DNA from: Candidatus Poribacteria bacterium | GTDB lineage: Bacteria > Poribacteria > WGA-4E > WGA-3G | Reading direction: 5' to 3' | Length of the DNA stretch: 64,000 nt | NCBI GenBank assembly: GCA_028820635.1 | Contig: JAPPIG010000042.1 | Location: forward strand, 180,344-244,343 | Shown here: positions 48,379-62,843 of the stretch, in pieces | Layout: each line of letters begins with the position of its first letter | Position numbering within the stretch: position 1 is the stretch's first letter | Notes under the pieces: generated by a model | Database searches by the model: none | What the model saw: only the letters and a program-made list of their open reading frames with translations | What the model was told of the DNA's origin: nothing | Position numbers and translations under genes: made by a program

Positions 48379-49719
48379 TTACGTATACCGCGTATTCTGA
48401 TATTCAGGGGCATAGAAAGCCGGAAGTAAACTATCAACTTGCAGCAGTCCGCGTTGTGTCAGTTGAATCTCATCTGATTCAGCGTTAACGGACAACATAC
48501 CATCGTTTTGAAGTTTTTCATACGCATCAGCGTAAAGTGTAAGAATATCCGCGTTGAATTTGGTTTGAAAATAGGAGGGTTTTATCTTGCCAAGTTTGAG
48601 TTGCAGAATCATCTCTCGTGTCAATCGTTCTGCTTCTGTAGGATTCAGTGCGCGATAGATAGGTAGCTTATCTTCCTCAAGATTATCAAGATAGTCTCCC
48701 CATGAAGGTGCGTTTTGAAAGTGAATCCCGCTGAGATGCGAAAAAGATGCAACACCTGTACCTATCATATCACTCCCTTGCCACACTGCATCGCGGTAGA
48801 CGAACTGACAAGGCTTGTCTTTTTTGAGTACTGTGTAAGCACTGGATTGTGCGTAACCAACTCGCGCAAATTGTTCAAAAGCGTATTGATGCCATTCTCG
48901 TTTCAGTTTCCAATCAGCGACAGGCAATGCATCTCCGCCAAGAATGTCTTTGGAATAAACGGTATTGAACGGCAGTTCAAGTTGGTAAACGGTGATACTG
49001 TCAGGATCAAGTTCGACTGTTTTTCTGACTGTCTCGCGCCAACTGTCCCATGTTTCCCCAATCATACCAGAGATGAGGTCAATGTTAACTTGGTCAAATG
49101 CCAATTCTTTGATCCAAGGGTCGATCCGATATACTTCTTTTGAGAGATGCGCTCTGCCGTTTTCAGCAAGTATTTCATCATTCAAATTCTCAACACCGAG
49201 ACTCAATCGGGTTACACCAATAGCCTTGATCGCTTCCAATTTCTTTCGTGTCAGGGTACCGGGTTCACACTCAAAAGCGACCTCTTCAGCAGCATCCCAT
49301 GGCAACACATTTTTCACTCTGTCTACCAAAGTTGTCAGATGATTGACACTAATATAGGAGGGTGTGCCACCACCAAAATAAACAAAATGCAAAGGTCGCC
49401 CTGTAATTGCAGGTTGCTTGCTGTATAGTTCAACCTCTTTTGCCAAAGCGTTTAGGTAAGTGTCAATTTCTGAACTGTTTTTATCGGTATATACCCGAAA
49501 GTAGCAGAATTTGCATCGTTTGCGACAAAAGGGAATGTGCAAGTAAAGTCCAAGCGTGGCATCTGGACGCGGTTCTTCACTCAGCGCGCGATGCACTTCG
49601 GGAACTGCTGAATCGTTCCAAGTAGAATATGGAGGATAGTTTGAGACAAAAACGCTGCCGACTGTTGTCTTTTTTGATTCTATTCCTGCTGTTGCAGGTT
49701 CCGGTTTAGTTGTAGACAT
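48379..49719 (-). CDS. HemN/HemW-like radical SAM enzyme
   Basis: A 446-residue radical SAM protein. The 4Fe-4S cluster motif Cys-x3-Cys-x2-Cys is LHIPFCRKRCKFCYFRVY (Cys65, Cys69, Cys72). FVYFGGGTPSYIS follows near residue 110, with RLSLGVENLNDEIL and the HemN-like C-terminal region after it. Relatives are coproporphyrinogen dehydrogenase and the haem chaperone HemW. An N-terminal extension of about 55 residues is atypical. The start overlaps the stop of the beta-propeller gene by one base (TAATG). The operon context is not haem synthesis, so a different radical reaction is plausible. Confidence 0.88.
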   Translation of the reverse strand: MSTTKPEPATAGIESKKTTVGSVFVSNYPPYSTWNDSAVPEVHRALSEEPRPDATLGLYLHIPFCRKRCKFCYFRVYTDKNSSEIDTYLNALAKEVELYSKQPAITGRPLHFVYFGGGTPSYISVNHLTTLVDRVKNVLPWDAAEEVAFECEPGTLTRKKLEAIKAIGVTRLSLGVENLNDEILAENGRAHLSKEVYRIDPWIKELAFDQVNIDLISGMIGETWDSWRETVRKTVELDPDSITVYQLELPFNTVYSKDILGGDALPVADWKLKREWHQYAFEQFARVGYAQSSAYTVLKKDKPCQFVYRDAVWQGSDMIGTGVASFSHLSGIHFQNAPSWGDYLDNLEEDKLPIYRALNPTEAERLTREMILQLKLGKIKPSYFQTKFNADILTLYADAYEKLQNDGMLSVNAESDEIQLTQRGLLQVDSLLPAFYAPEYQNTRYT

Positions 49720-50888
49720 TATTTCTTTTCTCCAAAGCAGTAGAGGACCCCATCCTCTGTTCCTATGTATATTTTCCCATCAGAAACGCTGGGTGATGCA
49801 ACGATAGATGAACCTGTTTCATATTTCCACACCTGTTCCCCGTTGGTAATATCAAGCGCAATAAATACGCCACGAGTTGTACCAAAAAACACGCGTTTTC
49901 CAACGATGACCGGAGAAGATTCAATACGGGATTTTGCGGCAAAATTCCATTGCGGTTCACCTTTTTCTGGTGAGAGCGCATGCACCATCTTGTCGCGCCC
50001 CCCAATAATTATACGGTCTTTTGTTACGGCGGCAGAAGCAAAAAACGGAAGTTTACGTACCGGATGTTCATACCGCCACTTAATTTCACCAGATGTGAGG
50101 TCAACACCTAACACTTCGTTACCATACGTTCCGCAATAAGCGCGAACTTTGGACGTAGTTTGTGCTTCTGTGTTAACGTCTAAAATCGCTGGACTCGCAC
50201 CAACATACGCACCAAGGTTAACCTGTTGTGTCTGATTCCCATCGTTAATATTAATAATTCGTAAAAAACTATCGCACCCTGTGACAATAACGAAATCTCC
50301 GAAAATTGCGGGTGTGCCGTGAACATATCCTTCAGTTTCAAATTTCCATACTAATTCACCATTTTTTATGTTAAGACAGTAGAGAAATCCATCATACGAG
50401 CCAAATAGCACATTGTCGCCAGCGAAATTTGCTGATGATATGATTTCGCCCTCTGTAGTAAACTCCCATTTCTTTTTTCGAGTGTCAATATCCACAGCAT
50501 GAAAAATACCATCTTCATCACCAAAATATATAACGCTCTTGTGAATAGATGGTGATGATTTAATTGGTGCAGTTGCCTCATACTTCCATTTGCTTTTTCC
50601 GGTTTGTGCGTTAATGGCATAAAGAAAACCATCTAACGCTCCGATATACAGGGTGCCATCAACAATTGCAGCAGTGGACTCAATCATATCTCCTGCTTTA
50701 AAAGCCCAGATTAACTCAAGTTTGTCGGGGAGTTGTGAATCGGCTACACCTGTGAGTTGCGGATTCCCACGAAAGCTTTCCCAATCACCAAAAGCGGAGT
50801 GCATTCCGAGAATCAATAAAAAAGTTAATACGTTAGCAATAAGACTCCAATATGGTCGTGTCTTTAACTGCTCAAAAAATGTGTTCAT
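49719..50888 (-). CDS. Exported PQQ-type beta-propeller protein
   Basis: A 389-residue protein with an N-terminal hydrophobic segment (about 15-35), then beta-propeller blades with recurring tryptophans: SKWKYEATAPIKSSPSI, KKWEFTTEGEIISSANF, LVWKFETEGYVHGTPAI, IKWRYEHPVRKLP and QVWKYETGSSIVASPSV. Each blade has the (A/G)xDxxTG-like turn of the PQQ-binding family. Most such proteins do not bind PQQ and act as scaffolds or assembly factors in the periplasm. It overlaps the alcohol dehydrogenase stop by 17 bases and the radical SAM start by one. Confidence 0.9.
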   Translation of the reverse strand: MNTFFEQLKTRPYWSLIANVLTFLLILGMHSAFGDWESFRGNPQLTGVADSQLPDKLELIWAFKAGDMIESTAAIVDGTLYIGALDGFLYAINAQTGKSKWKYEATAPIKSSPSIHKSVIYFGDEDGIFHAVDIDTRKKKWEFTTEGEIISSANFAGDNVLFGSYDGFLYCLNIKNGELVWKFETEGYVHGTPAIFGDFVIVTGCDSFLRIININDGNQTQQVNLGAYVGASPAILDVNTEAQTTSKVRAYCGTYGNEVLGVDLTSGEIKWRYEHPVRKLPFFASAAVTKDRIIIGGRDKMVHALSPEKGEPQWNFAAKSRIESSPVIVGKRVFFGTTRGVFIALDITNGEQVWKYETGSSIVASPSVSDGKIYIGTEDGVLYCFGEKK

Positions 50889-51993
50889 ATAGTCTCACAA
50901 AATCATGTATCGCCAAAGAACGTGGGTTAAACTGGGCAGTCCATTGTGCTGCGGCTTCCTTTGCCAATGTAGCGATGTCTGTTGATCTTATATTACATTG
51001 GACAGAACTATCTTGTAATGAGTTCGGCAAATCGCCTTTCTGCATTAACATTTCAATTCTATCTGCCAAATTTCCGTCCGAGTAAAGCTCACGATACGAT
51101 TCGTCTGCGATTGTTTTGTTAAATCGAATTACATGTGGTAACATCAGGGCAACAGCAACACCGTGTGTTATGCCGAATCTGGCTGTCAATGGATTTGCAC
51201 ATGCGTGTGCCGCGCCTAACATTGAGTTTTCAATCGCAACGCCAGCAAGATAAGCACCGAATAACATCTTTCCGCGTGCTTTACTGTTTTTCGCATCAAG
51301 TGCCAATTCGAAATTAGCATCTAAAAGTTGCCATGCGTGTAGAGAGAACATCTGCGACATTGGGTTGCGTCTGGTTGAAACGAAACTTTCAATTGCATGG
51401 GCAATTGCGTCTATTCCTGTGATAGCGGCTACAGATTTCGGTAAGGTTTCTGTTACCGTCGGGTCTAAAATTACTGTTTTAAATTGCGCTTTTTTATCAC
51501 CACACGCCATTTTGATATGTGTGTCTTCCTGTGCAATTAGGGCAAAAGATTGTGCCTCACTTCCTGTGCCTATTGTTGTCGGAATACCGATTGAAGGGAA
51601 CATCGGTTGCGATGCTTTGTTCGTTCCCCAGTAATCCTCCATTTTCCCACCGTTGGTTAGTAGAAAATTTGTGCTTTTTGCACAATCCATCGCACTTCCA
51701 CCACCGAGTCCAATAATCAGGTCAATCGGTGCATTGGCTTTTGCAAATTGAACCGCAGCTTCAACATGTTTCGTGGTTGGGTTAGGGTCAACATCTGTGA
51801 AAACGTAACATGGAATCTTCTCAATATTAAGTGCTGAATATGCACGTTTGAGGATACCAGCTTCCTGAATACCAGGGTCTGTTACAATTAGAACACGGCT
51901 GCCGCCAAGAGCTATTGTGGATTCAACAAGTTTCTCAATACTGTTTTCGCCAAAGATGACGCGTTGTGCCAAATCAGAATCAAAAGAAATCAT
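50872..51993 (-). CDS. Iron-containing alcohol dehydrogenase
   Basis: A 373-residue group III alcohol dehydrogenase. It has the NAD(P)-binding GGGSAMDCAKSTNFLL near residue 95, the metal-binding Asp/His set in AITGIDAIAHAIESFVS (near 190-205) and AHACANPLTARFGITHGVAV (near 260-280) with the further His in MLPHVIRFN. It interconverts alcohols and aldehydes with Fe or Zn. It is the first gene of an overlapping four-gene operon with a beta-propeller, a radical SAM enzyme and a PaaK-like ligase. There is no good ribosome site directly before the ATG. Confidence 0.92.
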   Translation of the reverse strand: MISFDSDLAQRVIFGENSIEKLVESTIALGGSRVLIVTDPGIQEAGILKRAYSALNIEKIPCYVFTDVDPNPTTKHVEAAVQFAKANAPIDLIIGLGGGSAMDCAKSTNFLLTNGGKMEDYWGTNKASQPMFPSIGIPTTIGTGSEAQSFALIAQEDTHIKMACGDKKAQFKTVILDPTVTETLPKSVAAITGIDAIAHAIESFVSTRRNPMSQMFSLHAWQLLDANFELALDAKNSKARGKMLFGAYLAGVAIENSMLGAAHACANPLTARFGITHGVAVALMLPHVIRFNKTIADESYRELYSDGNLADRIEMLMQKGDLPNSLQDSSVQCNIRSTDIATLAKEAAAQWTAQFNPRSLAIHDFVRLYEHIF

Positions 51994-52377
51994 GACAACA
52001 AGTTTTCTATTTGTTAAATTTCCAAACGGATTGAGCTTATCAATGATTCAAATTATATCAGATTTCGGTTCGTTATTCAAGGAAAGAAAGTAGGTAGGAC
52101 AGAGCCATTCAATTCTCCAATAATCGAACAGGCTACATCTGTTTCTTCTTGTAGGAGCGATCTCCGAATCGCGACAAAACACAACGATAGTCGGGAATCT
52201 AAATCAAGAAATCAACGGTATGAACGCCTGTAGGCGTTCCCCGGGTATGAATGCCATTTAGGCATTTCCCGGAGTTCCCTCCTACAATTAAAGGGAAAAC
52301 TCGACAATTGAATGACTCTGGTAGGTAGGATTATTTGACCTGAGTCACTTTATTTGTAAATATGTAATTTATTCAAG
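51994..52377. repeat. Gene-free stretch with a repeat nested in a repeat
   Basis: At 52153-52287 a hairpin-type repeat is split: the left part (GTAGGAGCGATCTCCGAATC) and the right part (GGAGTTCCCTCCTAC) flank an insert at 52201-52271. That insert is the near-identical inverted copy of the 71-bp repeat at 15583-15653. Nothing else is seen in the gap. Confidence 0.72.
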
Positions 52378-53877
52378 TCAATTACTGTTAGGATACTCAG
52401 CTAAATGTGCTTGTGGCGTGCCATTCCGATAATCGCCATCACGAGCATTCAGCATCCATTTGCTGAGTCGGGTGACAAGGTCGGGATGGTCTGAGGAAAT
52501 ATCGTTCTCTTCGCGGTAGTCGTGAGAGAGGTGGTATAGCTGAAAACTATCCGTTTTGTTGATATATCGTAGTTTCCAACCATCTGACGTTACCAACGCG
52601 GGACCAAGTCGAGAGGCGTATACAATCCACTCATGGTTCTGTTGTTGCTCAGGTTGTTCCAGAAGAGTCGGTAAGAATGACACCCCATCTTTGTTTTGCG
52701 GCAATTTCACACCGATGATGTCAGCAAGGGTTGGCATCAAATCGTAGTTTGCGAGCATGTGGTTTGATACACGATCAGGTGCTATCGTTCCAGGAAAACG
52801 GACAAGATAAGGGATACGCGTGCCGCCTTCCCAACTTGACCACTTCAAACCACCCATTCCATCGTTGCCGTTGAACACGTCGCCCCCTGTTTCCGAATAG
52901 AATTTCGTTGTAATTTCGTCAAACGGTTCACCTTCCAAATTCCTCTGTCGACCAGAAGTCCGCCCTTCTTGCCGGTAATACACTTCGTGTCCGTTATCTG
53001 AGCAAAAAACGATCATCGTGCGATCATCAATCCCGAGTTGTTGGAGTTCATCCAAAATGATCCCAACGGTCTCATCCAACTTCAGGATCATAGAGGCGTA
53101 TTCTTTTTCATACGTTGTCAATTCTGATGATTGCCTGACAGACGGATGAATGTCGGGTATGGCAATTGGTCCGTGTGGCAGCTGAGATGGATGGTAGAGG
53201 AAGAAAGGTTTATTCTTGTGTTTTCGGAGAAACTCTATGATTTTGTCGTTGAAAATGTCCTGAGAATATACCGCCTTCCCTTGACGATTCCTGCGAATCA
53301 CCATACTTTCATCCGATTCCGAATTCGGATGCTTCGCACAGTCTGCGTGGGTATTCCCCTGAATATATTTCAATTCCCCATTTTCAAAGAGAAAAGGTGG
53401 GTAAAATCCGTGACAACGCTGGTGATCATAATAACCGTAGTGATACTGCCACCCGTGACGACGGATACGTTCTGCTGTTGTGGCAAAACCCCATTCAAGT
53501 TTCCCGATCTGTCCCGTTACATAACCCGCTTCCTCCGCGATTTCAGCTAAAAAAACATCATCGGTACCCGCCTGTAATCCAGTGGAATGAATCAGCTCCG
53601 AAATTTCATCTGGCATCATTTCACCGGTGCTTATGCTTTGATAGATACCTGCTTTGGTATATGTCCATGTGCCTTGATGGCAATCGTGGATACCTGTCAA
53701 CATACTGGCACGGGAGGGGGCACAGAATGCGCAACCGTAGGCGTGATTGAACCGCATTCCTTCGTTTGCAAGACGGTCAATATTGGGTGTCTCAAAATGT
53801 TGTTGTCCATAGCAGCTTAACATGCCGCGCCCGAGGTCGTCTGCGAAAATAAGAATTACATTGGGGTTTTCGGTCAT
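52378..53877 (-). CDS. Formylglycine-dependent sulfatase
   Basis: A 499-residue sulfatase. Metal ligands lie in LIFADDLGRGMLSCYG (Asp13, Asp14). The maturation motif Cys52-Ala-Pro-Ser-Arg56 (FCAPSRASMLTG) is intact, so Cys52 should be converted to formylglycine. The second metal-binding segment is VFCSDNGHEVYYRQEG. No signal peptide is present. The ATG at 53877 gives the conserved start; an upstream codon at 53907 is less likely. Sulfatases of this kind release sulfate from glycans or lipids. It is the last gene of the minus-strand unit with the aldehyde dehydrogenase and the selenoprotein N-like gene. Confidence 0.93.
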   Translation of the reverse strand: MTENPNVILIFADDLGRGMLSCYGQQHFETPNIDRLANEGMRFNHAYGCAFCAPSRASMLTGIHDCHQGTWTYTKAGIYQSISTGEMMPDEISELIHSTGLQAGTDDVFLAEIAEEAGYVTGQIGKLEWGFATTAERIRRHGWQYHYGYYDHQRCHGFYPPFLFENGELKYIQGNTHADCAKHPNSESDESMVIRRNRQGKAVYSQDIFNDKIIEFLRKHKNKPFFLYHPSQLPHGPIAIPDIHPSVRQSSELTTYEKEYASMILKLDETVGIILDELQQLGIDDRTMIVFCSDNGHEVYYRQEGRTSGRQRNLEGEPFDEITTKFYSETGGDVFNGNDGMGGLKWSSWEGGTRIPYLVRFPGTIAPDRVSNHMLANYDLMPTLADIIGVKLPQNKDGVSFLPTLLEQPEQQQNHEWIVYASRLGPALVTSDGWKLRYINKTDSFQLYHLSHDYREENDISSDHPDLVTRLSKWMLNARDGDYRNGTPQAHLAEYPNSN

Positions 53878-53908
53878 AACTACAATACCAGTGGTTTTGA
53901 ACAGCAAG

Positions 53909-55327
53909 TTATTTCAGAATATCACAAAGTTGAAAAGCACGTTGCCGATAGAGATGTTCAAACAAATTCCCTTCATGCGGACTATCCCAAGAAATTTGGT
54001 TTGTCGGGATTGCACCCAAATTTAATCTGTCAACAAAAGATGTTGATAGTAGTTCTTGAGGCAATTCGTCATCTTCAGTAATAACAGTAGCGACCAGCGT
54101 TGCTCCAATAGATTCGACGAGTTTTGCTGCTGGCACTTCAACAACACTTACAAATGGGAATGGAAATTCAGTGTTTGCTAATGGATGTTCTGGGTTTTCA
54201 CACCAAACAACCGTCGGTCTGAGGAAGGTGCAACCATCTAATTCAATTACCCGTTCACCAGATGTTAATTCAATTGCACCAGACTGTTTGAGATGTCGGT
54301 CAATCAGTGATGAGATGCTATGGGCAGCTTTTGGATTTGCCCATGCAGCAATTCCTGCCTCAGGATGGTCAAGCGGTTTCGGTTCAATAGCCGCCAAACG
54401 TTCCGCTAACGCTTCGGCAATATCATTGCCATGTGCTGTCACCCATACGCCAGAGGCATTAATGCATGATCTACCACCGTTTTTAGCAACCGATTCTACA
54501 ATGAGATCAAGATGTTGTTTCCAATTTGATTGCTGCCCTTCGTGAATGATGATTTTACTACGCCCCGGTCCATGAATTTCCACGCGTGGATCGTTTAACC
54601 ATGACTCTACAGTTGAACCACCGCCAAACAGCATAGATCTGCCACATCGAAATAAGATTTCGTTAGCACCAGGATAATCAGTTGGGTAAAAACTGAACGC
54701 TTCTGGTAGCACACCTGCTTCCATAAACGCTTGCGCTATCCGATAAGGAGTCCACGGTTCCTCACGCCCCGGTTTCAGTACTAATGGAACTTTTAAAGCA
54801 ACCGCAGGAATCCACAAAGAGTGAACACCAGGAGAATTGCTTGGCAGCACCGCACCGAGTGCATCTGTTTCACATACGTAACTTAATGTCCGCTCATTTT
54901 GAACACCCCACCCTGAGTCTAAGATTCGTAAATCAAGTCCACGTGTTAAACCATCTAAAACGGTCTCTATATTTTCTAAAACACCTTGAATCTTCCCCAT
55001 GTTTTGTTGACAGAGTGTTTCAGGTAAACCGGTTGTACCAGAAACCTGTTCGACATAATCTGTGGGGGATTGCGTACCACCACCAAGCGGAAGGTCTGCG
55101 GTAGTGAATAGACGTGCAGCATCGTTGCACATCCCAATCAACTCTGAAACGGAATGTTGTGAAAGTGTTTGCTTGTGAAGTGGTAAGTCGCGGAGGTCTT
55201 TGGCTATCAAACCAGTGTTCGCTTGGCTGACTTCAACCAAAGGTTCACCTGTTTTGATATGTGAGACACTAACGGTTTTCAAACTTCTATAAGAACGACC
55301 TGCGCGTAGAATTGGGATGTGTACCAT
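53909..55327 (-). CDS. Aldehyde dehydrogenase family / acyl-CoA reductase-like protein
   Basis: A 472-residue protein of the ALDH superfamily. The cofactor Lys185 sits in PLVLKPGREEPWTP, GGGSTVESW is near residue 236, and the nucleophile Cys288 is in KNGGRSCINASGVW. The general-base region is unusual (IIHEGQQS instead of ELGGK), which hints at an acyl-CoA reductase of the LuxC kind rather than an oxidising ALDH. An AMP-forming ligase two genes upstream would supply the activated acyl group. The ATG at 55327 lies 12 bases after the propeller stop, and the longer frame from 55381 would overlap that gene. Confidence 0.85.
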   Translation of the reverse strand: MVHIPILRAGRSYRSLKTVSVSHIKTGEPLVEVSQANTGLIAKDLRDLPLHKQTLSQHSVSELIGMCNDAARLFTTADLPLGGGTQSPTDYVEQVSGTTGLPETLCQQNMGKIQGVLENIETVLDGLTRGLDLRILDSGWGVQNERTLSYVCETDALGAVLPSNSPGVHSLWIPAVALKVPLVLKPGREEPWTPYRIAQAFMEAGVLPEAFSFYPTDYPGANEILFRCGRSMLFGGGSTVESWLNDPRVEIHGPGRSKIIIHEGQQSNWKQHLDLIVESVAKNGGRSCINASGVWVTAHGNDIAEALAERLAAIEPKPLDHPEAGIAAWANPKAAHSISSLIDRHLKQSGAIELTSGERVIELDGCTFLRPTVVWCENPEHPLANTEFPFPFVSVVEVPAAKLVESIGATLVATVITEDDELPQELLSTSFVDRLNLGAIPTNQISWDSPHEGNLFEHLYRQRAFQLCDILK

Positions 55328-55338
55328 TGTCTTTTCGA

Positions 55339-56034
55339 CTACCTTGTAATCTTTGCGACCCAACCAGAAGAAGCATCGCAATATAAGAAATCATCACCAT
55401 AGATGGATAAACCGTGCGGTTCTGGACAGTCTTCGGGAACCTCAATCACATCAAGCGGTGTACCGTCTTCAAGATCAAGTCTAACAATGACTCTATCAGA
55501 GGTGTGGGTTGACCAAAGCCCATCTTCAACACGAACCATGCCGTGTCCACGTCCATGAGGTAACGGAAGTGTCTTTTGTACAGACCAATCCGAAATTCTG
55601 ACTTTATGCGTAACCTGATTCTTAAGCGTTTGGACCCACAGATGGCCTTCATCGTAGTGGTCATATTCGATACCGTGTGTGCCACCGCCATCGGGTATCG
55701 GGTAGCGTCCAAGGGTTTCGCCAGTAGCAGGATCAACTTGGAAAACCTCACCTGTCTCAGCATCTGTATCCCGGACAGGACGCCAGCGTTCCCCAGTACC
55801 ATTCGCTGCTAACCAGAGCGAGCCTCCACCATACGTCATTCCACTCGTGTTGGAAGACTCACTCGGAATGTCACGAATGAGCTTCGGCACGGTATAATCC
55901 GGGTCTGATGTGATTTCAACCAAGGCGACTCTGTCCGTAATCTGATCAACGATCCATAAACCTTCGTCTGTAACCTGTAAACCGTTCGGGACTGAGTAGG
56001 GGGAACGAAAGACTTTTTCGATTTTTGTTATCAT
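55339..56034 (-). CDS. Six-blade beta-propeller protein (SMP-30/NHL-like)
   Basis: A 231-residue protein made of repeated strands such as PYSVPNGLQVTDEGLWIVDQ, SSNTSGMTYGGGSLWLAANG, GGGTHGIEYDHYDEGHLWV and GRGHGMVRVEDGLWSTHTSD. This is a small propeller of the SMP-30/gluconolactonase or YncE-like kind, without signal peptide. A GAGGAAC site precedes the ATG. It sits 15 bases after the selenoprotein N-like gene. Catalysis, perhaps a lactonase or lyase, is possible from the fold but no metal site can be confirmed. Confidence 0.82.
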   Translation of the reverse strand: MITKIEKVFRSPYSVPNGLQVTDEGLWIVDQITDRVALVEITSDPDYTVPKLIRDIPSESSNTSGMTYGGGSLWLAANGTGERWRPVRDTDAETGEVFQVDPATGETLGRYPIPDGGGTHGIEYDHYDEGHLWVQTLKNQVTHKVRISDWSVQKTLPLPHGRGHGMVRVEDGLWSTHTSDRVIVRLDLEDGTPLDVIEVPEDCPEPHGLSIYGDDFLYCDASSGWVAKITR

Positions 56035-56048
56035 ATTTGGGTTCCTCT

Positions 56049-57209
56049 TCAGTGTCTATCTACTTGCGCTAAAGATGACTTTAACCACCTAAAATATTCG
56101 GATTTTCGTTCATTACCAGGAAAAGATTTGTGAAACTCATTCGTGGGCAAATGTTGGATAAACTCCAATTCTGGTGTCAAAATCAGAGAGTCCACGGGAT
56201 ATACAAAATGCTCTTGGAGTTTTGTCGCTAACATAGCGGCAGCAACTCCCTTGGTACCGTCCTGTAGTTCGGGCAATTCTCGCAGTAGAACCCAAACATT
56301 GACAAAGTGGGTGTTGAGTAACTTGATGACTTTCGATGAAGAGAGCGGACCCGCTCTCAAAATTTTGCCCGACCCTCAGCACGATTCATCATCAAGGGCA
56401 CCAAACAAAACTAACGCATGGATAGGACGGTTTGTCAGTTTCGCGAGTTCGATGGTATCTTCAATTGGGTCCCACTCAATTTTAGCAAACTTGTAGAACG
56501 TAGTCGCTAACTTTTTGCGGGCTTCTTCTTCAGTGATGGCTGTTTCCCATGCTATCTCGCGTCCAGGCGTGCTTGATAAAGTGGAGAGTTCCATGCGAGG
56601 AATGAAAGCCACGTCTGCTGCCCTGAACGCATTAACATCTACATTGCTATTGCGTGCCGGAAGAAACAGAGAAAACTCTACAACTGCTCCTTCCTTTCGA
56701 TTCAGTACCAGTCGTCCTGCAAACTGTGCTGGCAACAAACGGATACCAGACGCGTCCAGCACGAACTGTGCATGAATTCGGAAGACAACTTCGGCGTAAT
56801 TGGGCGAAATTGCCCGTAAACACGCTTTTGCCCCTTCATATCTATGTGTTCTGCGGGAAAAGACGGTGATCTCCGTTGTTGCTCCCGGGTGAAACTGATA
56901 GAGGAAAGGGAGAATTCCTTTCGGGTCAAATTCCCAAATATCCCCTACATTAGCAGTCGAAGACGGTAGAAAAACTTGAAAGTCGGTTTGGCTGTAGTTC
57001 TTCAATGGGTGTGCAGGTTTAGGATTGAAAAGTTTCAACGCTTGTTCCCATTCCATATTCGCTAATTCTGGACATTTTGTTTTTGCCCGAGCAAACTGCT
57101 CCTCCGTTAATTGATGCAAGTTATAAGTAGCATCTGCGATTGGCTCCCAATGTGCTTGCAACTGCACACTCGCTGTACTGCTAAGAACATTACTAAAGTC
57201 CATTATCAC
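56049..57209 (-). CDS. Selenoprotein N-like protein with in-frame UGA (Sec278)
   Basis: The frame from GTG at 57209 (ATG at 57203 is the alternative) runs 277 codons to a TGA at 56376-56378. The same frame then stays open another 108 codons to a stop at 56049. The junction reads ALVLFGALDDESC-UGA-GSGKILRAGPLSS. This matches the SELENON signature GALDDxSCUGSG with the SCUG redox motif. The continuation (KLLNTHFVNVWVLLRELPEL) also follows the animal protein. Selenocysteine is therefore expected at residue 278, next to Cys277, in a thioredoxin-like fold. No signal peptide, EF-hand or transmembrane segment is evident. It lies between an AMP-forming ligase gene and a beta-propeller gene. The selenocysteine tRNA and SelAB genes are not in the window. 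A gene finder would wrongly split it in two. Confidence 0.9.
56341..56358 (-). promoter_or_regulatory. Putative bacterial SECIS hairpin
   Basis: Reading the minus strand, 17 bases after the UGA (56378-56376), GAGAGCG pairs perfectly with CGCUCUC around a GGUC loop. The stem can extend by one pair to leave a GU loop. Bacterial SECIS elements lie in the coding region directly behind the UGA and have a conserved G at the start of the apical loop; the Escherichia coli fdhF loop also contains GGUC. The position of the loop, about 25 bases downstream, fits SelB binding. Confidence 0.75.
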
Positions 57210-57239
57210 CTTATTTTTTCTCCTGTTTGTTAGGACGAT

Positions 57240-58313
57240 TTAGTAAACACCTACTACAACACTCTCTTGCAGTTCAGAAAGCAGACGTAGATTTTCAACG
57301 CCATCCCAAGGATATTCAGGAATCGGTTCAGCGCGTTCCGCTTCGTCACGCTCCAGAAAACGAGGTATGAAAAATTCCTTTGTCAAGGTCGTGAGCATCA
57401 CGCGTCCGGTTTCACCGTAATCAACAAGTTGTTCCGGATTTTCAGGGTTAACCAATTCTATAACTGCACGCGGTTGCGGCGGATAATAGATAATCGCATA
57501 GTTGTCAGCAGGATCAAAGGGTTTACAAGTGGCTAATCCCATAAGCGTATTACCGTAGGTCGGCACAAAATCAATTCCCGGCACGAGTTCCTCACGTGCG
57601 AAACGGTGGAATTGCGCGTCCATTTCGGTACCGCCACAGAAGATACCTTTTATACCAACTTTTTCTAATGAAATTTTCTCACATAAGGCTTCCAACAGTT
57701 TAGGTGTGGTAAATAGACATTGAACGTTCTCATGTGCTTTTAGAACGTTAAGTGCTTGTGAGATAACGTGGCTCTTATACGCATCTAATTCCTGATGTTT
57801 CCCGTAACGCACAAGCTGGTTCACCCAGCGCGGATCAAGGTCAACAAGGAAACAGATACCGCCACGATGCTGTGCAAGGTGTTCTACAGCAAGTCTTAAT
57901 CGACGTGGTCCGGTGGGACCTAACATTAGCCAATCGCTTCCGGGTGGAAAACTTTCATCGGATAATGTTTCACTGAACAACTCGTAATCAATATGGAAAT
58001 CTCGGATACTGATACGACATTTCGGTATACCTGTTGAGCCACCGGTTTCAAAAACATAGATCGGTTTATCGGCATACGCTTTTGGAACCCACCGTCTCAC
58101 AGGACCACCACGAAGCCATTCATCTTGGAAATGTCCAAGACATTTGAGATTGGCATAACCATCAATCTCTTTTCGTGGATCAAAATCCAAGTTCTCTGCG
58201 AATTCTAACCAGAAAGGACATCCGGTTTCTGGACTAAAGTGCCAGTTAACAATCTCCCGAACATGTGCGTCAAGTGTCATTCGGCCGTTTTCAATTTTTT
58301 CGGAAAGGTTCAT
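57240..58313 (-). CDS. AMP-forming acyl ligase, PaaK/LuxE-like
   Basis: A 357-residue adenylate-forming enzyme. The P-loop reads YVFETGGSTGIPKCRIS near residue 82. FCGGTEMDAQFHRFAREE and a YGNTLMGLATC segment mark the A4-A5 region. VDYGETGRVMLTTLTKEFFI precedes the C-terminal end. The mobile lid domain is short, as in LuxE and archaic phenylacetate-CoA ligases. The ATG at 58313 is favoured over a longer frame because it follows a GAGCAG site and clears the neighbouring gene. It starts the operon with the selenoprotein N-like gene, propeller, aldehyde dehydrogenase and sulfatase. Substrate unknown. Confidence 0.85.
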   Translation of the reverse strand: MNLSEKIENGRMTLDAHVREIVNWHFSPETGCPFWLEFAENLDFDPRKEIDGYANLKCLGHFQDEWLRGGPVRRWVPKAYADKPIYVFETGGSTGIPKCRISIRDFHIDYELFSETLSDESFPPGSDWLMLGPTGPRRLRLAVEHLAQHRGGICFLVDLDPRWVNQLVRYGKHQELDAYKSHVISQALNVLKAHENVQCLFTTPKLLEALCEKISLEKVGIKGIFCGGTEMDAQFHRFAREELVPGIDFVPTYGNTLMGLATCKPFDPADNYAIIYYPPQPRAVIELVNPENPEQLVDYGETGRVMLTTLTKEFFIPRFLERDEAERAEPIPEYPWDGVENLRLLSELQESVVVGVY

Positions 58314-58360
58314 TTCTGCTCTTCTATTGTGATTAGTTTGTAAAAGGATTCGGTTAGATC

Positions 58361-58966
58361 TTAGGCTTTTTGTGCTACCATACTTGCAAGGATACCGAGA
58401 ACTTTGTCGCACCGTTCAATTTGGTAGGGTAGCATGTCAATGTCAAGTTTTTTACCTTCCAATTTTAGGAATCGCCATTCTGTGCCTGAAGTGGTAGCAC
58501 CATAAACGCATGGAATGTCATTTCCTTCTTCCGCGTTAAAGTATTGGGCAGCAACCATTTCTGCTACACACTGTCCAAGCCCAATTTCAAGGTTATCGTT
58601 CTTTGCTTCAACAAGGACAATAATCGGTGCCTCCAAATTAAATTGGACAGGTGAAAGGCTTACCACAAAGTCACAAACACCGGTCAATCCGCTCTCATCA
58701 TCAACGCTGAAGTCTATCCCAGAAAAAAGACTAATACTATGGTCTAACTGCTCACGGAGTTCGACAAGAACATGGGCAACAATCAGTTCAGACTTTGCCT
58801 TCTCAGTTCCAATTGCGGTCGCTAATGGTATGTTTCGAGCTAACAAGGATGTAAGTAACTCGCCGGGAGCGACTGGTTCTGTATCAGAAAAAAGTCCAGC
58901 GGTATCAACCTCTTCAAGTTCAAATGCTGCCCGCACAGATGGTAAAGTAAAGTTGCTATATACCAT
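58361..58966 (-). CDS. PD-(D/E)XK-like hypothetical protein
   Basis: A 201-residue protein of unknown family. A nuclease-like core is visible: Asp99 in TGVCDFVVSLSP and Glu120-x-Lys122 in IIVLVEAKNDNLEIGLGQC, followed by a helix (VAEMVAAQYFNAEEGNDIP) that resembles the Gln-containing helix of the fold. The Glu61 region KAKSELIVAHVLVEL may supply the first acidic residue. An AGGGA site lies nine bases before the ATG at 58966. It precedes the ligase gene by 47 bases on the same strand and may or may not belong to that operon. Confidence 0.7.
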   Translation of the reverse strand: MVYSNFTLPSVRAAFELEEVDTAGLFSDTEPVAPGELLTSLLARNIPLATAIGTEKAKSELIVAHVLVELREQLDHSISLFSGIDFSVDDESGLTGVCDFVVSLSPVQFNLEAPIIVLVEAKNDNLEIGLGQCVAEMVAAQYFNAEEGNDIPCVYGATTSGTEWRFLKLEGKKLDIDMLPYQIERCDKVLGILASMVAQKA

Positions 58967-59028
58967 GTAAGTATCCCTTACTTTGGGACATGAAATAGAT
59001 TCCAAATGAATCGTTGACTTTAGAACCT

Positions 59029-60549
59029 CTATTCAGAAATTGCAATCAACCGATTACGGGTTACGATGTAAAGCACACCATCCTTTGCCACGGGTGTGGT
59101 ATAAACTGAACTCCCCATATTGAATTCATCAAGTACCACTTTCGTTTTGCCTGTTTTTAAGATGACAACATCACCATCTTCATCGCCAAGATAGACCTTA
59201 CCATCAACAACGTAAGGCGAACCCCAGATAGCGGCAAAGGTATCATGCGTCCAGAACAGATCGCCAGTTTTTACATCCAAGCAGTAGAGAAATCCGCTTA
59301 AATCAGAGATATAGAGAAGCCCTTCGTGAATAGCAACGGTAGACATTGTTCGATTGAACTGTTCATCTCCAAAGTGCCATACCGCAGCGGTTGAGGTCGT
59401 ATCACCTTTTTGTGAAGCGTCAATGCACCAGAGGTGTCCAACGCCTTCACCATGCTCTGGATCTTGTCCAACAGCAAGATAAACTTTGTCGTCATGAACG
59501 ACTGGTGTGGAAATGATGTTGTTCCGTGTGCCACGTCCACCAAGTTCCCATTCAGAATCTTTTGGGTTGCAGTCAAACTTCCAGATTATCTTGCCGGTTT
59601 CCGGTTCAAACGAGTAGACCCAACCATCGCCGCCGGGAATAATGACTTGTGGGACACCTTTGATAACACCGTAAGCTGGATTTGACCACTGTCCGTGTAG
59701 TATATTTTCTCCAGGGGAGGCATCTTCCCAAACCAATTCACCAGTGTTTTTATTCAATGCGATAAAACTTGGGGCATCGGGAACAGGGATATGGATATGT
59801 GTTTCATCAACACCGTTGCTTGTTTCCAAGAAAAGCAGGTCTCCGACAGCAAGCGGAGAACAAGTAGCGAGGTTGTGCGGAAAAACGTCCAACTCATCCA
59901 TCATATCATAAATCCAGATGATGTCCCCGTCAATTTCACTTGTCTCGGTTTCGTCTTTAAAGGGTCCGTCATTTTCGCCATCAAGAAAGCCTTCTGTATC
60001 AACACAAACAACTTCACAGCGGTTAGAGATGTAGTAGAGTCTATCGCCCTCAATATATGGCGTTGAACAGATTCCCTGCAGAGGCCAGTCGTTAACGCGT
60101 CCTGAAAGGAGTTTTGTATGTGTGATTTGCCACAGAAATTCGCCATCGGATTCTCGAAACGCCATGAGATTCCCACGGTCACCCGTCAATTTCGGATTTT
60201 TCAGGGCATCGTTATTCGTTCCAACAAAAATTTTGCCGCCGCTGATGAGGGGACCCGCGTAACTTTGTGAACCGAGTTCTGCTACCCATTTGATATTTTC
60301 ACCTGTTTCCAGATTCCATTTTGCTGGAATGTTTTTCTCATCCGAAACCATGTTACGACTTAACGTACCACCCCATAGAGCAATTTCTTTATCAGCAGAT
60401 TTATGGGAGTCTGCAAAACTGTTTGGCACTTGAAATACACTGAGAAGACCGAATGTCAGAACGAAGAGGACAAACGAATACGAATGCACACCGTAACTAT
60501 TATTTCTTATAGCGATGCTTTTAGCACCGCTTTTCCATTCAAAAATCAT
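59029..60549 (-). CDS. Secreted PQQ-type beta-propeller protein 2
   Basis: A 506-residue protein with an N-terminal extension and a signal peptide (YSFVLFVLTFGLLSVFQVP, cleavage near FADS). Repeated blades follow, with tryptophans in DGEFLWQITHTKLLSG, GKIIWKFDCNPKDSE and GDLFWTHDTFAAIWG and with TG turns. Family members with LWGGTLSRNMVS-type openings are common in planctomycete-like bacteria and are probably periplasmic. It starts three bases after the lipoprotein gene and ends the three-gene unit. Confidence 0.88.
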   Translation of the reverse strand: MIFEWKSGAKSIAIRNNSYGVHSYSFVLFVLTFGLLSVFQVPNSFADSHKSADKEIALWGGTLSRNMVSDEKNIPAKWNLETGENIKWVAELGSQSYAGPLISGGKIFVGTNNDALKNPKLTGDRGNLMAFRESDGEFLWQITHTKLLSGRVNDWPLQGICSTPYIEGDRLYYISNRCEVVCVDTEGFLDGENDGPFKDETETSEIDGDIIWIYDMMDELDVFPHNLATCSPLAVGDLLFLETSNGVDETHIHIPVPDAPSFIALNKNTGELVWEDASPGENILHGQWSNPAYGVIKGVPQVIIPGGDGWVYSFEPETGKIIWKFDCNPKDSEWELGGRGTRNNIISTPVVHDDKVYLAVGQDPEHGEGVGHLWCIDASQKGDTTSTAAVWHFGDEQFNRTMSTVAIHEGLLYISDLSGFLYCLDVKTGDLFWTHDTFAAIWGSPYVVDGKVYLGDEDGDVVILKTGKTKVVLDEFNMGSSVYTTPVAKDGVLYIVTRNRLIAISE

Positions 60550-60552
60550 ACA

Positions 60553-61506
60553 TCACCATACCTTTAGATTATCATAATAGATTTCAGTCGCGGAATAGGC
60601 ATAGATACCTGGACTACCTTCTCGATTCGGGAGAGGGTCTTCAGCAGTGATCGTCCATTCATCTGGTTCCGATTCGCTGGTGCGCCATACCTTACCACTA
60701 ATTACCGCTTTTTCATCAATAACTTCGACCTTCATTTTCATTGTATACCAAACGTCTGCCTCCCATGCGAAGTCAATCGTTTTTGCCATGCGCAAATCGG
60801 ATGCCCACGACCGGATTTGAAGACGTTGCTGCCTACCTTGCATATCCAACGTATAGCGGTTTGCAATTAAGCCCATATCTGGTAATCGCCGTTTATATCT
60901 CGTCCCCAACAGGTCAACTTGAATCTGATAGTCTTTCATTGTTGGAGGGCCGATGTAGACGTTTGACTTGTTCAAACCACGTTGAACAGGTGTCTTGACT
61001 AAAACCCTGTTGCCATTTTTTTCACGAACAAAATATTTGTTTGTAGCAGCGATCCAGTGTGAAGGTGTTTTTTCAAGTTCAACGTTTTCAAAGTCTTCTG
61101 TCCAAGGTAGTGGCGGAATAACTCTAATCCGAGTAGTTGCTTTTAACTCGCCAGATTGTGCCGTGACTGTGCCTGCATGCGGACCAACACTATTATCAGG
61201 TGTGAACTGGTTGTCCTCAAGTGTTCCAGTTAAACCTGTGAGAGACCATTCTATTGTGCCAACTGCACTTGTCTGTCTCCCATTCGCATCAAACGCGATA
61301 ACGTTGAGTTCAACAGGATCACCTGATGTAATAGTTTCGGCAGGGGTGAGCAGGAGTGCGACTGCAGGGTCAGTGCTCATCGTGGGTGCTTCAATCTCTT
61401 TGGTAGCACACCCGACAGCAAAAAGGCAAATTATCAGACTTGCAAAAAGCGTATATTGTCCAAAAACAGAAACTTTCCATCTTGCTATAAAACAAAATTT
61501 TTTCAT
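60553..61506 (-). CDS. Lipoprotein with Ig-like and LamG/DUF1080-like domains
   Basis: A 317-residue lipoprotein with lipidation Cys33 in CLFAVGC. Residues 45-125 form an Ig-like or cadherin-type beta domain (SGDPVELNVIAFDANGRQ, then TTRIRVIPP). The rest is a concanavalin-like beta-sandwich (WTEDFENVELEKTPSHWIA, then YYDNLKVW at the end). These proteins are attached to the outer membrane and often bind glycans. The ATG overlaps the stop of the upstream propeller gene (TAATG), and the next gene starts three bases after its stop, so the three are an operon. Confidence 0.82.
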   Translation of the reverse strand: MKKFCFIARWKVSVFGQYTLFASLIICLFAVGCATKEIEAPTMSTDPAVALLLTPAETITSGDPVELNVIAFDANGRQTSAVGTIEWSLTGLTGTLEDNQFTPDNSVGPHAGTVTAQSGELKATTRIRVIPPLPWTEDFENVELEKTPSHWIAATNKYFVREKNGNRVLVKTPVQRGLNKSNVYIGPPTMKDYQIQVDLLGTRYKRRLPDMGLIANRYTLDMQGRQQRLQIRSWASDLRMAKTIDFAWEADVWYTMKMKVEVIDEKAVISGKVWRTSESEPDEWTITAEDPLPNREGSPGIYAYSATEIYYDNLKVW

Positions 61507-62843
61507 TATTTCCTCCCTACACAGTAGAGACGTTCTTCAGTAGTGAAATAGATTCGTCCATCAGCAATAGCAGGTGAACCGAAGATTTCAACATAGTGAT
61601 CATCTTCTTCTCGACTTATTTCTTGGACACTGAGCGACTCACAGTCATCCGTACCGGGTTGAAGGATATGGAATTTACCGTTGACTTCAGTAACATACAA
61701 TTTTCCATCAGCCCATACAGGTGATCCTTTTCCAACGGTACCGATGCTATGCTGCCATAATACTTTTCCGGTTTCTGCATTCAGACAGTGAATATTTGCT
61801 GAGTTATCAACGACATAGAGTTGCCCGTTTTTAAGTGTAGGTGAAGCATAACCAACCCCGACCCCATCATATCGCCATACCTCATGGGTAGCGGTAACAT
61901 CTCCGTTACCAGTTGCATCAATGCAGACAACACGTCCCATAGCCGTAGTGTCAAAATTTTCTTCGCTATGAGAAGCATAAACCTTTGTGCCAGCCACAAG
62001 GACAGAGGTATTGATACCGCGCTTACTTAGTTTGAAACCCCACACCATTTCACCAGTGGTCTGTTTCATAGCGTAGATGCCTCCATCAGCATTGCCACCA
62101 ATAATAAGTGTTTGTCCATTGATTTCGGTGACAACTGGCGTGGAATAGGTTGTGTCAAGCGGTCTGCCGCCGGGTGTTGAGACCCAAATCAGATCACCAT
62201 TCCGTTTGTCAAATGCAAAGTAGCGGTGCCTTGGGATAGATTGGTTTCCCCATCCCACATTCAGATAACTGATAACAACAAGGTTGCCAGCAATTACAGG
62301 AGTGTGAACGCGTCCACCGTAACCAGAAATCCGCCCATATTCCTCTGTGAGTGAACGTGACCACACAATATTTCCATCTTTATCATAGCAAATAAAAAGT
62401 CCCTGAACGCCATGTATGTAGATATTACCGGTTTCTGTATCCCCGACAGGATTTGTCCAACCGACACGGTTGAATGTAATAGTGGTATGAAATACGTTAA
62501 ATTGATGAATCCATAACAGATCACCGGTTTTCGCATCAAAACAAGCAATGCGTTCCTGTTCAGTTATATCCTTGCCAACACGTCCGAGGACATAGACTCT
62601 ATCGTTGAGCACAACCGGTGTGGACCGTCCTATAAAATCTGCCTGCCAGAGCAGGTTTTCTCCGTCAACTGACCAGTTAGATATTAGTCCAGTTTCTGCA
62701 GATGTGCCATCCTGATTAGGTCCTCGCCAACTTGGCCAATCGTCGGCATAAACTAACACAGGCGTAACGATTAAAAGAAAAAAGAAAAAAATCCGATAAT
62801 ATATCGGTATGCATTTATGCAAAGTATTATTCCCCCTATCCAT
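61506..62843 (-). CDS. Secreted PQQ-type beta-propeller protein 1
   Basis: A 445-residue propeller with a signal peptide (IFFFFLLIVTPVLVYA) and the family opening DDWPSWRGPNQDGTS, followed by eight-blade-type repeats such as GDLLWIHQFNVFHTT, GEMVWGFKLSKRGIN and GKVLWQHSIGTVGKG, each ending in a SPVW/STPVV strand. Proteins with WPSWRGPNQDG openings are abundant in Planctomycetes and related groups. The gene is the first of the propeller-lipoprotein-propeller operon. The exact start is uncertain because no good ribosome site is present. Confidence 0.88.
   Translation of the reverse strand: MDRGNNTLHKCIPIYYRIFFFFLLIVTPVLVYADDWPSWRGPNQDGTSAETGLISNWSVDGENLLWQADFIGRSTPVVLNDRVYVLGRVGKDITEQERIACFDAKTGDLLWIHQFNVFHTTITFNRVGWTNPVGDTETGNIYIHGVQGLFICYDKDGNIVWSRSLTEEYGRISGYGGRVHTPVIAGNLVVISYLNVGWGNQSIPRHRYFAFDKRNGDLIWVSTPGGRPLDTTYSTPVVTEINGQTLIIGGNADGGIYAMKQTTGEMVWGFKLSKRGINTSVLVAGTKVYASHSEENFDTTAMGRVVCIDATGNGDVTATHEVWRYDGVGVGYASPTLKNGQLYVVDNSANIHCLNAETGKVLWQHSIGTVGKGSPVWADGKLYVTEVNGKFHILQPGTDDCESLSVQEISREEDDHYVEIFGSPAIADGRIYFTTEERLYCVGRK

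Follow-up and report, generated by a model that had tools for sequence, protein, structure and literature searches.

Poribacterial homologues of the selenoprotein N catalytic region with a predicted in-frame selenocysteine codon

In the genome of a Candidatus Poribacteria bacterium, a stretch of 64,000 nucleotides (contig JAPPIG010000042.1; hereafter the window) contains two open reading frames (ORFs) that lie in the same frame and are parted by a TGA, raising the question of whether this codon terminates a protein or encodes selenocysteine (Sec). The gene concerned, termed here SelN, occupies 56049..57209 on the minus strand and is delimited by homology and by conservation of its frame. It very probably encodes a protein homologous to animal selenoprotein N (SELENON) in its catalytic region, in which UGA is read as Sec by the bacterium's own machinery, likely guided by a hairpin, and which would act as a thiol/selenol oxidoreductase.

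A split gene homologous to animal SELENON

The first ORF (56376-57209, minus strand) has 277 codons, starts with GTG and ends in ...GALDDESC, while the second (56049-56360, minus strand, TTG start, 103 amino acids) lies in the same frame beyond 15 stop-free bases (56361-56375). The original prediction of two same-frame ORFs parted by a TGA and 15 coding bases is thus borne out by the ORF listing. Translation with TGA as U yields 386 residues, with U at 278 and the sequence GALDDESC-U-GSGKILRAGPLSS, and reproduces the proposed reading DDESC-U-GSGKILRAGPL across the codon. The predicted selenocysteine codon lies at 56376..56378 within an SCUG motif (residues 276-279; 56373..56384) that is shared with animal SELENON. 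Translation would begin at GTG 57209 or at the alternative ATG 57203, and AGGAG, resembling a ribosome-binding site, stands 10 bases 5' of the GTG (57220..57224). The final stop at 56049-56051 is itself a TGA, which excludes a general reassignment of UGA in this genome.

A human SELENON query retrieved named animal selenoprotein N entries. The window protein aligns with shark SELENON at 31% identity over 353 columns (E 3e-46), and the alignment spans the motifs PA.P...F.VFLP, FRIHA.F, P(A/G)QF.G and GALDD(E/Q)SC as well as the helix LLN..F(V/I)..W.L(L/V)(R/K)EL..L, so that the likeness first proposed for the catalytic motif and the helix behind it is found within a much longer match. U and G are precisely the pair that the shark UniRef entry is missing, which is what gene annotation that passes over the UGA would produce, and Sec on the animal side is therefore taken from the literature: in the available text of PMC12839072, animal SELENON carries a UGA-encoded Sec in its SCUG motif. 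Matches to the shark, lamprey and carp proteins extend to every one of the 150 bacterial rows.

The two sides share the catalytic luminal region, the SCUG motif with its UGA codon and the conserved helix that follows, and differ in what surrounds them. Animal SELENON has an anchor at its N-terminus with the redox domain on the far side of the membrane, a calcium-sensing EF-hand, and a redox action on SERCA that is linked to calcium. No EF-hand is among the Pfam matches of the window protein at E<=1, and no membrane anchor is apparent in this copy, whose highest 19-residue hydropathy is 1.15 as against 1.97 in carp SELENON; the protein is for these reasons called a catalytic-region homologue and not a full SELENON. 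The short cytoplasmic form originally proposed accordingly holds for the window copy, which has neither a membrane-like stretch nor an EF-hand, and fails for the family, other copies of which, with N-terminal or internal hydrophobic stretches judged by eye, look exported, lipoprotein-like or membrane-anchored. The bacterial side also differs in having an in-frame hairpin of bacterial type, many copies per genome, and fusions to redoxin and extracytoplasmic function (ECF) sigma domains. Mammalian thioredoxin reductase, in contrast to SelN, is a flavoprotein with its GCUG motif at the C-terminal end. Its vicinal Cys-Sec pair followed by Gly is alike, a likeness to SELENON that is drawn in the available text of PMC12839072.

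Conservation of the site was followed in 59 genomes, including the window's own (a 5.97-Mb assembly, 93.7% complete). Homologues of the read-through protein occur in 41 of the 59, a single genome having as many as 17 matches, and among the matches listed nearly all hold exactly one in-frame TGA, the exceptions being two with an extra TAA and two without TGA, of which one is only partial. The homologues run on beyond the TGA, a point the original prediction had left to be checked: the frame continues past a TGA at the same position in homologues as distant as about 37% identity. When the genomes are scanned for the exact DNA motif with TGA, a pattern that recovers seven of the eight copies in the window's genome, 207 occurrences emerge, spread over 41 of the 59 and numbering at most 15 in any one, and a reversed control pattern gave no match in the same scan. 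The corresponding pattern with a Cys codon at the site of residue 278 was found in none of the 59 genomes, the search being for exact DNA with fixed context, which variants would escape. Profile matching gave 148 stretches in the loci, near-copies included, of which 135 carry the motif, with TGA in 135 of 135; of the 13 motif-less stretches, two are full-length with DEGC for DESC, also with TGA, and the rest do not reach the site. Counted as distinct sites, TGA is present in 111 of 111. One SelN copy (L138; genome G024, C2:7981-8826) has Gly (GGC) at the Sec site and no UGA, and is perhaps a natural loss of Sec.

The window's genome holds eight SelN copies with one TGA in each, five of them in a tandem array (C34:11521-19298) with one UGA apiece, and neighbouring copies on one contig occur in several relatives as well. 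SelN is present in five genera besides the window's own, and no SelN turned up in any of 10 same-class genomes outside the order or in 8 of the 13 listed as the same order. In a genome scan, the best 80 of 211 confirmed loci were all from Poribacteria, and among the best 120 of 724 whole-protein matches, which measure 226 to 299 residues, the named sources (four names) were Candidatus Poribacteria. A query with the part 3' of the UGA retrieved 75 proteins, all of which start past the UGA and none of which contains front-half words; no full-length Cys form is among those 75, in a search that needs shared words and that distant forms would escape. The database entries examined split SelN genes at the UGA, and present annotation thus hides the family.

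A conserved hairpin and the selenocysteine machinery

Beginning 17 bases 3' of the window UGA, the message can form a predicted selenocysteine insertion sequence (SECIS) hairpin (56341..56358, minus strand), in which 56352-56358 pair with 56341-56347 around the loop GGUC (56348-56351). Two classes occur, class i as in the window (GAGAGCG-GGUC-CGCUCUC) and class ii (GAGGGC-AGGU-GUCCUC, or with loop AGUU), and all 111 of 111 distinct sites are able to form one or the other. The GGU of the loop resembles that of the E. coli fdhF SECIS. Among 19 thinned class i sequences 98.5% of cells pair, with changes on both sides at two of seven pairs; among 29 thinned class ii sequences the values are 98.3% and three of six pairs. 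The covariation score was reached by none of 500 shuffles, pairing fell to only 33-75% when the hairpin positions were slid along, and RNAalifold recovers both classes unaided. None of 5000 synonymous recodings with uniform codon choice was as stable as the real sequence (-11.9 as against a mean of -2.6 kcal/mol). Codon use is narrow within the hairpin at the distinct sites: the loop Gly codon is always GGT (91 of 91 sites that have Gly), Leu is written CTC at 107 of 111 sites and Pro is written CCG at 58 of 60, while many codons 5' of the UGA vary and the Gly at -8 uses four.

The decoding machinery is complete in the window's genome, where selA, selB, selC and selD, all named beforehand as genes to look for, were found. 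The tRNA-Sec scores 78.1 bits and has the anticodon UCA by ARAGORN; selB (348.7 bits) lies 34 bases from it on the same strand; and selA scores 611.8 bits. The selD gene (370.1 bits; G000:C112:62937-63863) has an in-frame UGA of its own, in CAGUASKL. After that codon a hairpin GCUC-CGGGU-GAGC can be read by eye, and computed folds favour others. FTHFS was also sought in this genome and not found, which has no bearing on SelN. Among the genomes that carry SelN, 41 in all, selA exceeds the cut-off in 37 and selB in 39. Two genomes with no selA match and no selB over cut-off (G050 and G054) are both without SelN, and the 16 further SelN-less genomes mostly have Sec machinery, which therefore does not require SelN. 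Co-occurrence of SelA and SelB in most sponge-symbiont bins, and not in most close references, is reported in the available text of PMC5649159.

Homology to SELENON, a near-strict UGA at SC-U-G and a conserved, covarying hairpin thus stand beside tRNA-Sec(UCA), selA, selB and selD, and insertion of Sec at the window UGA is strongly predicted from sequence. That the gene encodes a true selenoprotein homologous to SELENON, as originally proposed, is supported by the alignment, the machinery and the conservation of the UGA, with Sec itself predicted. Decoding would resemble that of known bacterial selenoproteins, which likewise use SelA, SelB, SelC and SelD and have a SECIS right after the UGA. 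SelB carrying Sec-tRNA would bind the hairpin, and Sec would be inserted in place of termination. In the finished protein, Sec may attack a disulfide or peroxide, the adjacent Cys would resolve the attack as a selenylsulfide, and a reductant would reset the pair; the proposed thiol/selenol oxidoreductase function is inferred from the SCUG motif and the predicted fold. For the window copy, the most likely place of action is the cell interior, and other copies would carry out the same chemistry outside the membrane.

Several observations weigh against parts of this account. Codons are in places fixed outside the hairpin too, the Cys codon before the UGA being TGC in 111 of 111 sites and the Lys at +4 being AAA in 107 of 110. 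In class i, two of the five covariation measures fail to stand out clearly from the shuffles: 32 of 500 reached the number of pairs with changes on both sides, and 214 of 500 reached that of further pair types. Taken alone, the 51-base stretch of the window prefers another minimum-energy fold (-13.3 kcal/mol, against -10.7 for the hairpin alone), and of 47 thinned sequences, 30 include the hairpin in their minimum-energy fold and 17 do not. A 201-base stretch matched no Rfam family. Over cut-off, selA is missing from four and selB from two of the 41 SelN-bearing genomes; of the four without selA, three are at most 86% complete and one (G006) is 95% complete. Finally, the neighbouring genes give no hint of a redox partner.

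Fold, fusions and neighbours

For the half that bears Sec (model residues 235-384), prediction gives a thioredoxin-like fold nearest to the group of DsbH, ERp19-AGR, UAS and DUF255. On our reading of the model, the Cys-Sec pair would sit between a strand and the next helix, the place of CxxC in such folds. SelN differs from these proteins in having SCUG and not CxxC and a further domain, about 230 residues long, at the N-terminus, and its match to PF03190 (DUF255), at 12.5 bits, lies below the curated cut-off of 27. The front part (275 residues) is predicted to fold well alone (predicted local distance difference test, pLDDT, 82.6). Searches of solved structures by sequence gave no match to the SelN family (best E 0.32; none at E<=1 in a second search), and the N-terminal part alone retrieved nothing from the PDB at E<=0.001 (best 0.055), which does not imply a new fold. 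NCBIfam holds no family that matches SelN at E<=0.1.

Other copies place the same domain in different architectures. One (L130) has a signal-peptide-like start and three (L102, L107 and L123) have lipoprotein-like starts, all judged by eye, and SelN is fused to redoxin (AhpC/TSA) in L013, L014 and the proteins P0242-P0316. In L014, P0242, P0260, P0270 and P0312 the redoxin motif reads NGFC, NSFC or SGFC, so that the first Cys of CxxC is missing. Many copies (L128-L134) have C-terminal parts of about 130 residues with no Pfam family in those scanned, and this domain is apparently doubled in L133. In four records (L100, L135, L136 and L137, the last three taken as records of L108, L105 and L103) a single open frame joins an ECF sigma factor through a hydrophobic stretch to a UGA-bearing SelN domain. 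Sigma70_r2 and r4 are both above cut-off, and the hydrophobic stretch was judged by eye to be membrane-spanning. The product, arranged much as type II SELENON is, is possibly a selenocysteine-containing, membrane-tethered sigma factor, and its SelN domain would likely be a redox sensor.

Around the window gene, all on the minus strand, an AMP-binding-enzyme-like gene (57240..58412; 28.4 bits, below the Pfam cut-off of 29.9) ends 30 bases upstream of SelN, and a Vgb_lyase-like gene (55339..56034; weak, below cut-off) begins 14 bases downstream. Both also lie near SelN in relatives; an aldehyde-dehydrogenase family protein (53909..55381) belongs to the same neighbourhood in relatives, and a sulfatase (52378..53907) in some of them. 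Among 110 loci, which include the window's own and many of which hold other SelN subfamilies or short flanks, the Vgb-like gene is near SelN in 27 (19 distinct loci) and the AMP-binding-like gene in 22, a recurrence that gives the window copy a lasting set of neighbours. The recurrent set, over 52378-58412, comprises the AMP-binding-like gene, SelN, the Vgb-like gene, the aldehyde dehydrogenase and the sulfatase. More widely, 49719-62843 holds several genes with PQQ-like beta-propeller repeats, judged by eye, and an iron-dependent alcohol dehydrogenase, all near SelN.

Alternative readings, origin and significance

If the TGA were a true stop, a sequencing error or a mark of gene decay, the two ORFs would be a truncated protein and its leftover. 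Public annotation agrees with a stop, as the 75 proteins that start past the UGA and the short whole-protein matches attest, but this reading is very improbable and was rejected: the exact motif recurs across the 41 genomes with the protein conserved on both sides of the same codon, the SECIS-like hairpin is conserved, the Sec machinery is complete, and SELENON carries Sec at this motif (available text of PMC12839072). An intermediate case, in which the UGA is read through while the 277-residue form remains the main product and Sec is minor or selenium-regulated, is improbable as well. Sec insertion in general competes with termination, and the front part is predicted to fold well alone; against this, no Cys back-up form was found in the searches described, and the stretch directly after the UGA is strongly conserved. 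It is rather unlikely that SelN is mainly a redox or ligand sensor and not an enzyme, with a reversible Sec bond that alters attached domains or partners. The ECF sigma fusion across a hydrophobic stretch speaks for a sensor, as does the description of animal SELENON as a calcium sensor coupled to redox activity (available text of PMC7474598), whereas the window copy has no output domain, and five tandem copies in one genome together with redoxin fusions suggest catalysis.

A separate matter is the direction of transfer between animals and bacteria. In a tree built from seven of the eight animal rows and, after thinning at 72% identity, 38 of the 150 bacterial ones, all seven animal rows fall on one side of a single branch (100/100; length 1.76), and since this tree cannot be rooted it does not settle the direction. 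Acquisition of SelN by Poribacteria from an animal (sponge) host, and not by animals from bacteria, is conceivable and on the whole doubtful. Poribacteria are known sponge symbionts (available text of PMC5649159), SelN was not found in the same-class and same-order genomes noted above, and the placement of the animal rows would permit it, but the bacterial side has several subfamilies, layouts and fusions in five genera beyond the window's own and carries the SECIS-like hairpin within its coding region.

Taken together, these loci make up a strongly predicted bacterial selenoprotein family, homologous to the catalytic region of SELENON and greatly expanded and diversified in Poribacteria. What is new is the set of eight copies, five in tandem, in one genome, the up to 17 matches in relatives, and the soluble, lipoprotein-like, redoxin and ECF sigma forms. 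No bacterial SELENON is named in the open papers searched, subscription literature lying outside the search, and Poribacteria are not co-mentioned there with 'selenoprotein N' or 'selenoprotein'. A subscription review may already mention a bacterial relative of SELENON, possibly joined to a thioredoxin domain. Searched by term, the main texts of two reviews of prokaryotic selenoproteins (PMC9312934, 2022; PMC13188914, 2026) name no bacterial SELENON, nor do those of PMC12013277, PMC5029168, PMC11227280 and PMC9402790. For selenoproteins together with extracytoplasmic function sigma factors, the search of open papers brought up one, on C. difficile.

SELENON underlies inherited human myopathies (available text of PMC12839072), yet the searches of solved structures described above gave no sequence match to this family; being soluble and compact and having a bacterial SECIS of its own, the bacterial homologue could open the catalytic region to direct testing. 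With eight bacterial relatives whose UGA is likely read as Sec, SELENON chemistry is probably approachable in a simple bacterial form. The many UGA-bearing copies point to bacteria that have committed themselves to selenium for the sake of a single protein family, and the fusion with an ECF sigma factor suggests a use of Sec in transcriptional control. A tentative suggestion, which we regard as unlikely, is that animals obtained selenoprotein N by capturing a redox module from bacteria, a module that radiated in Poribacteria into a toolkit of soluble, lipoprotein-like and redoxin-fused forms and a selenium-containing sigma sensor. If so, the sigma fusion would share the layout of the animal endoplasmic reticulum form, with an inner part, one membrane pass and an outer Sec domain, and would be a living model of SELENON redox sensing across a membrane.
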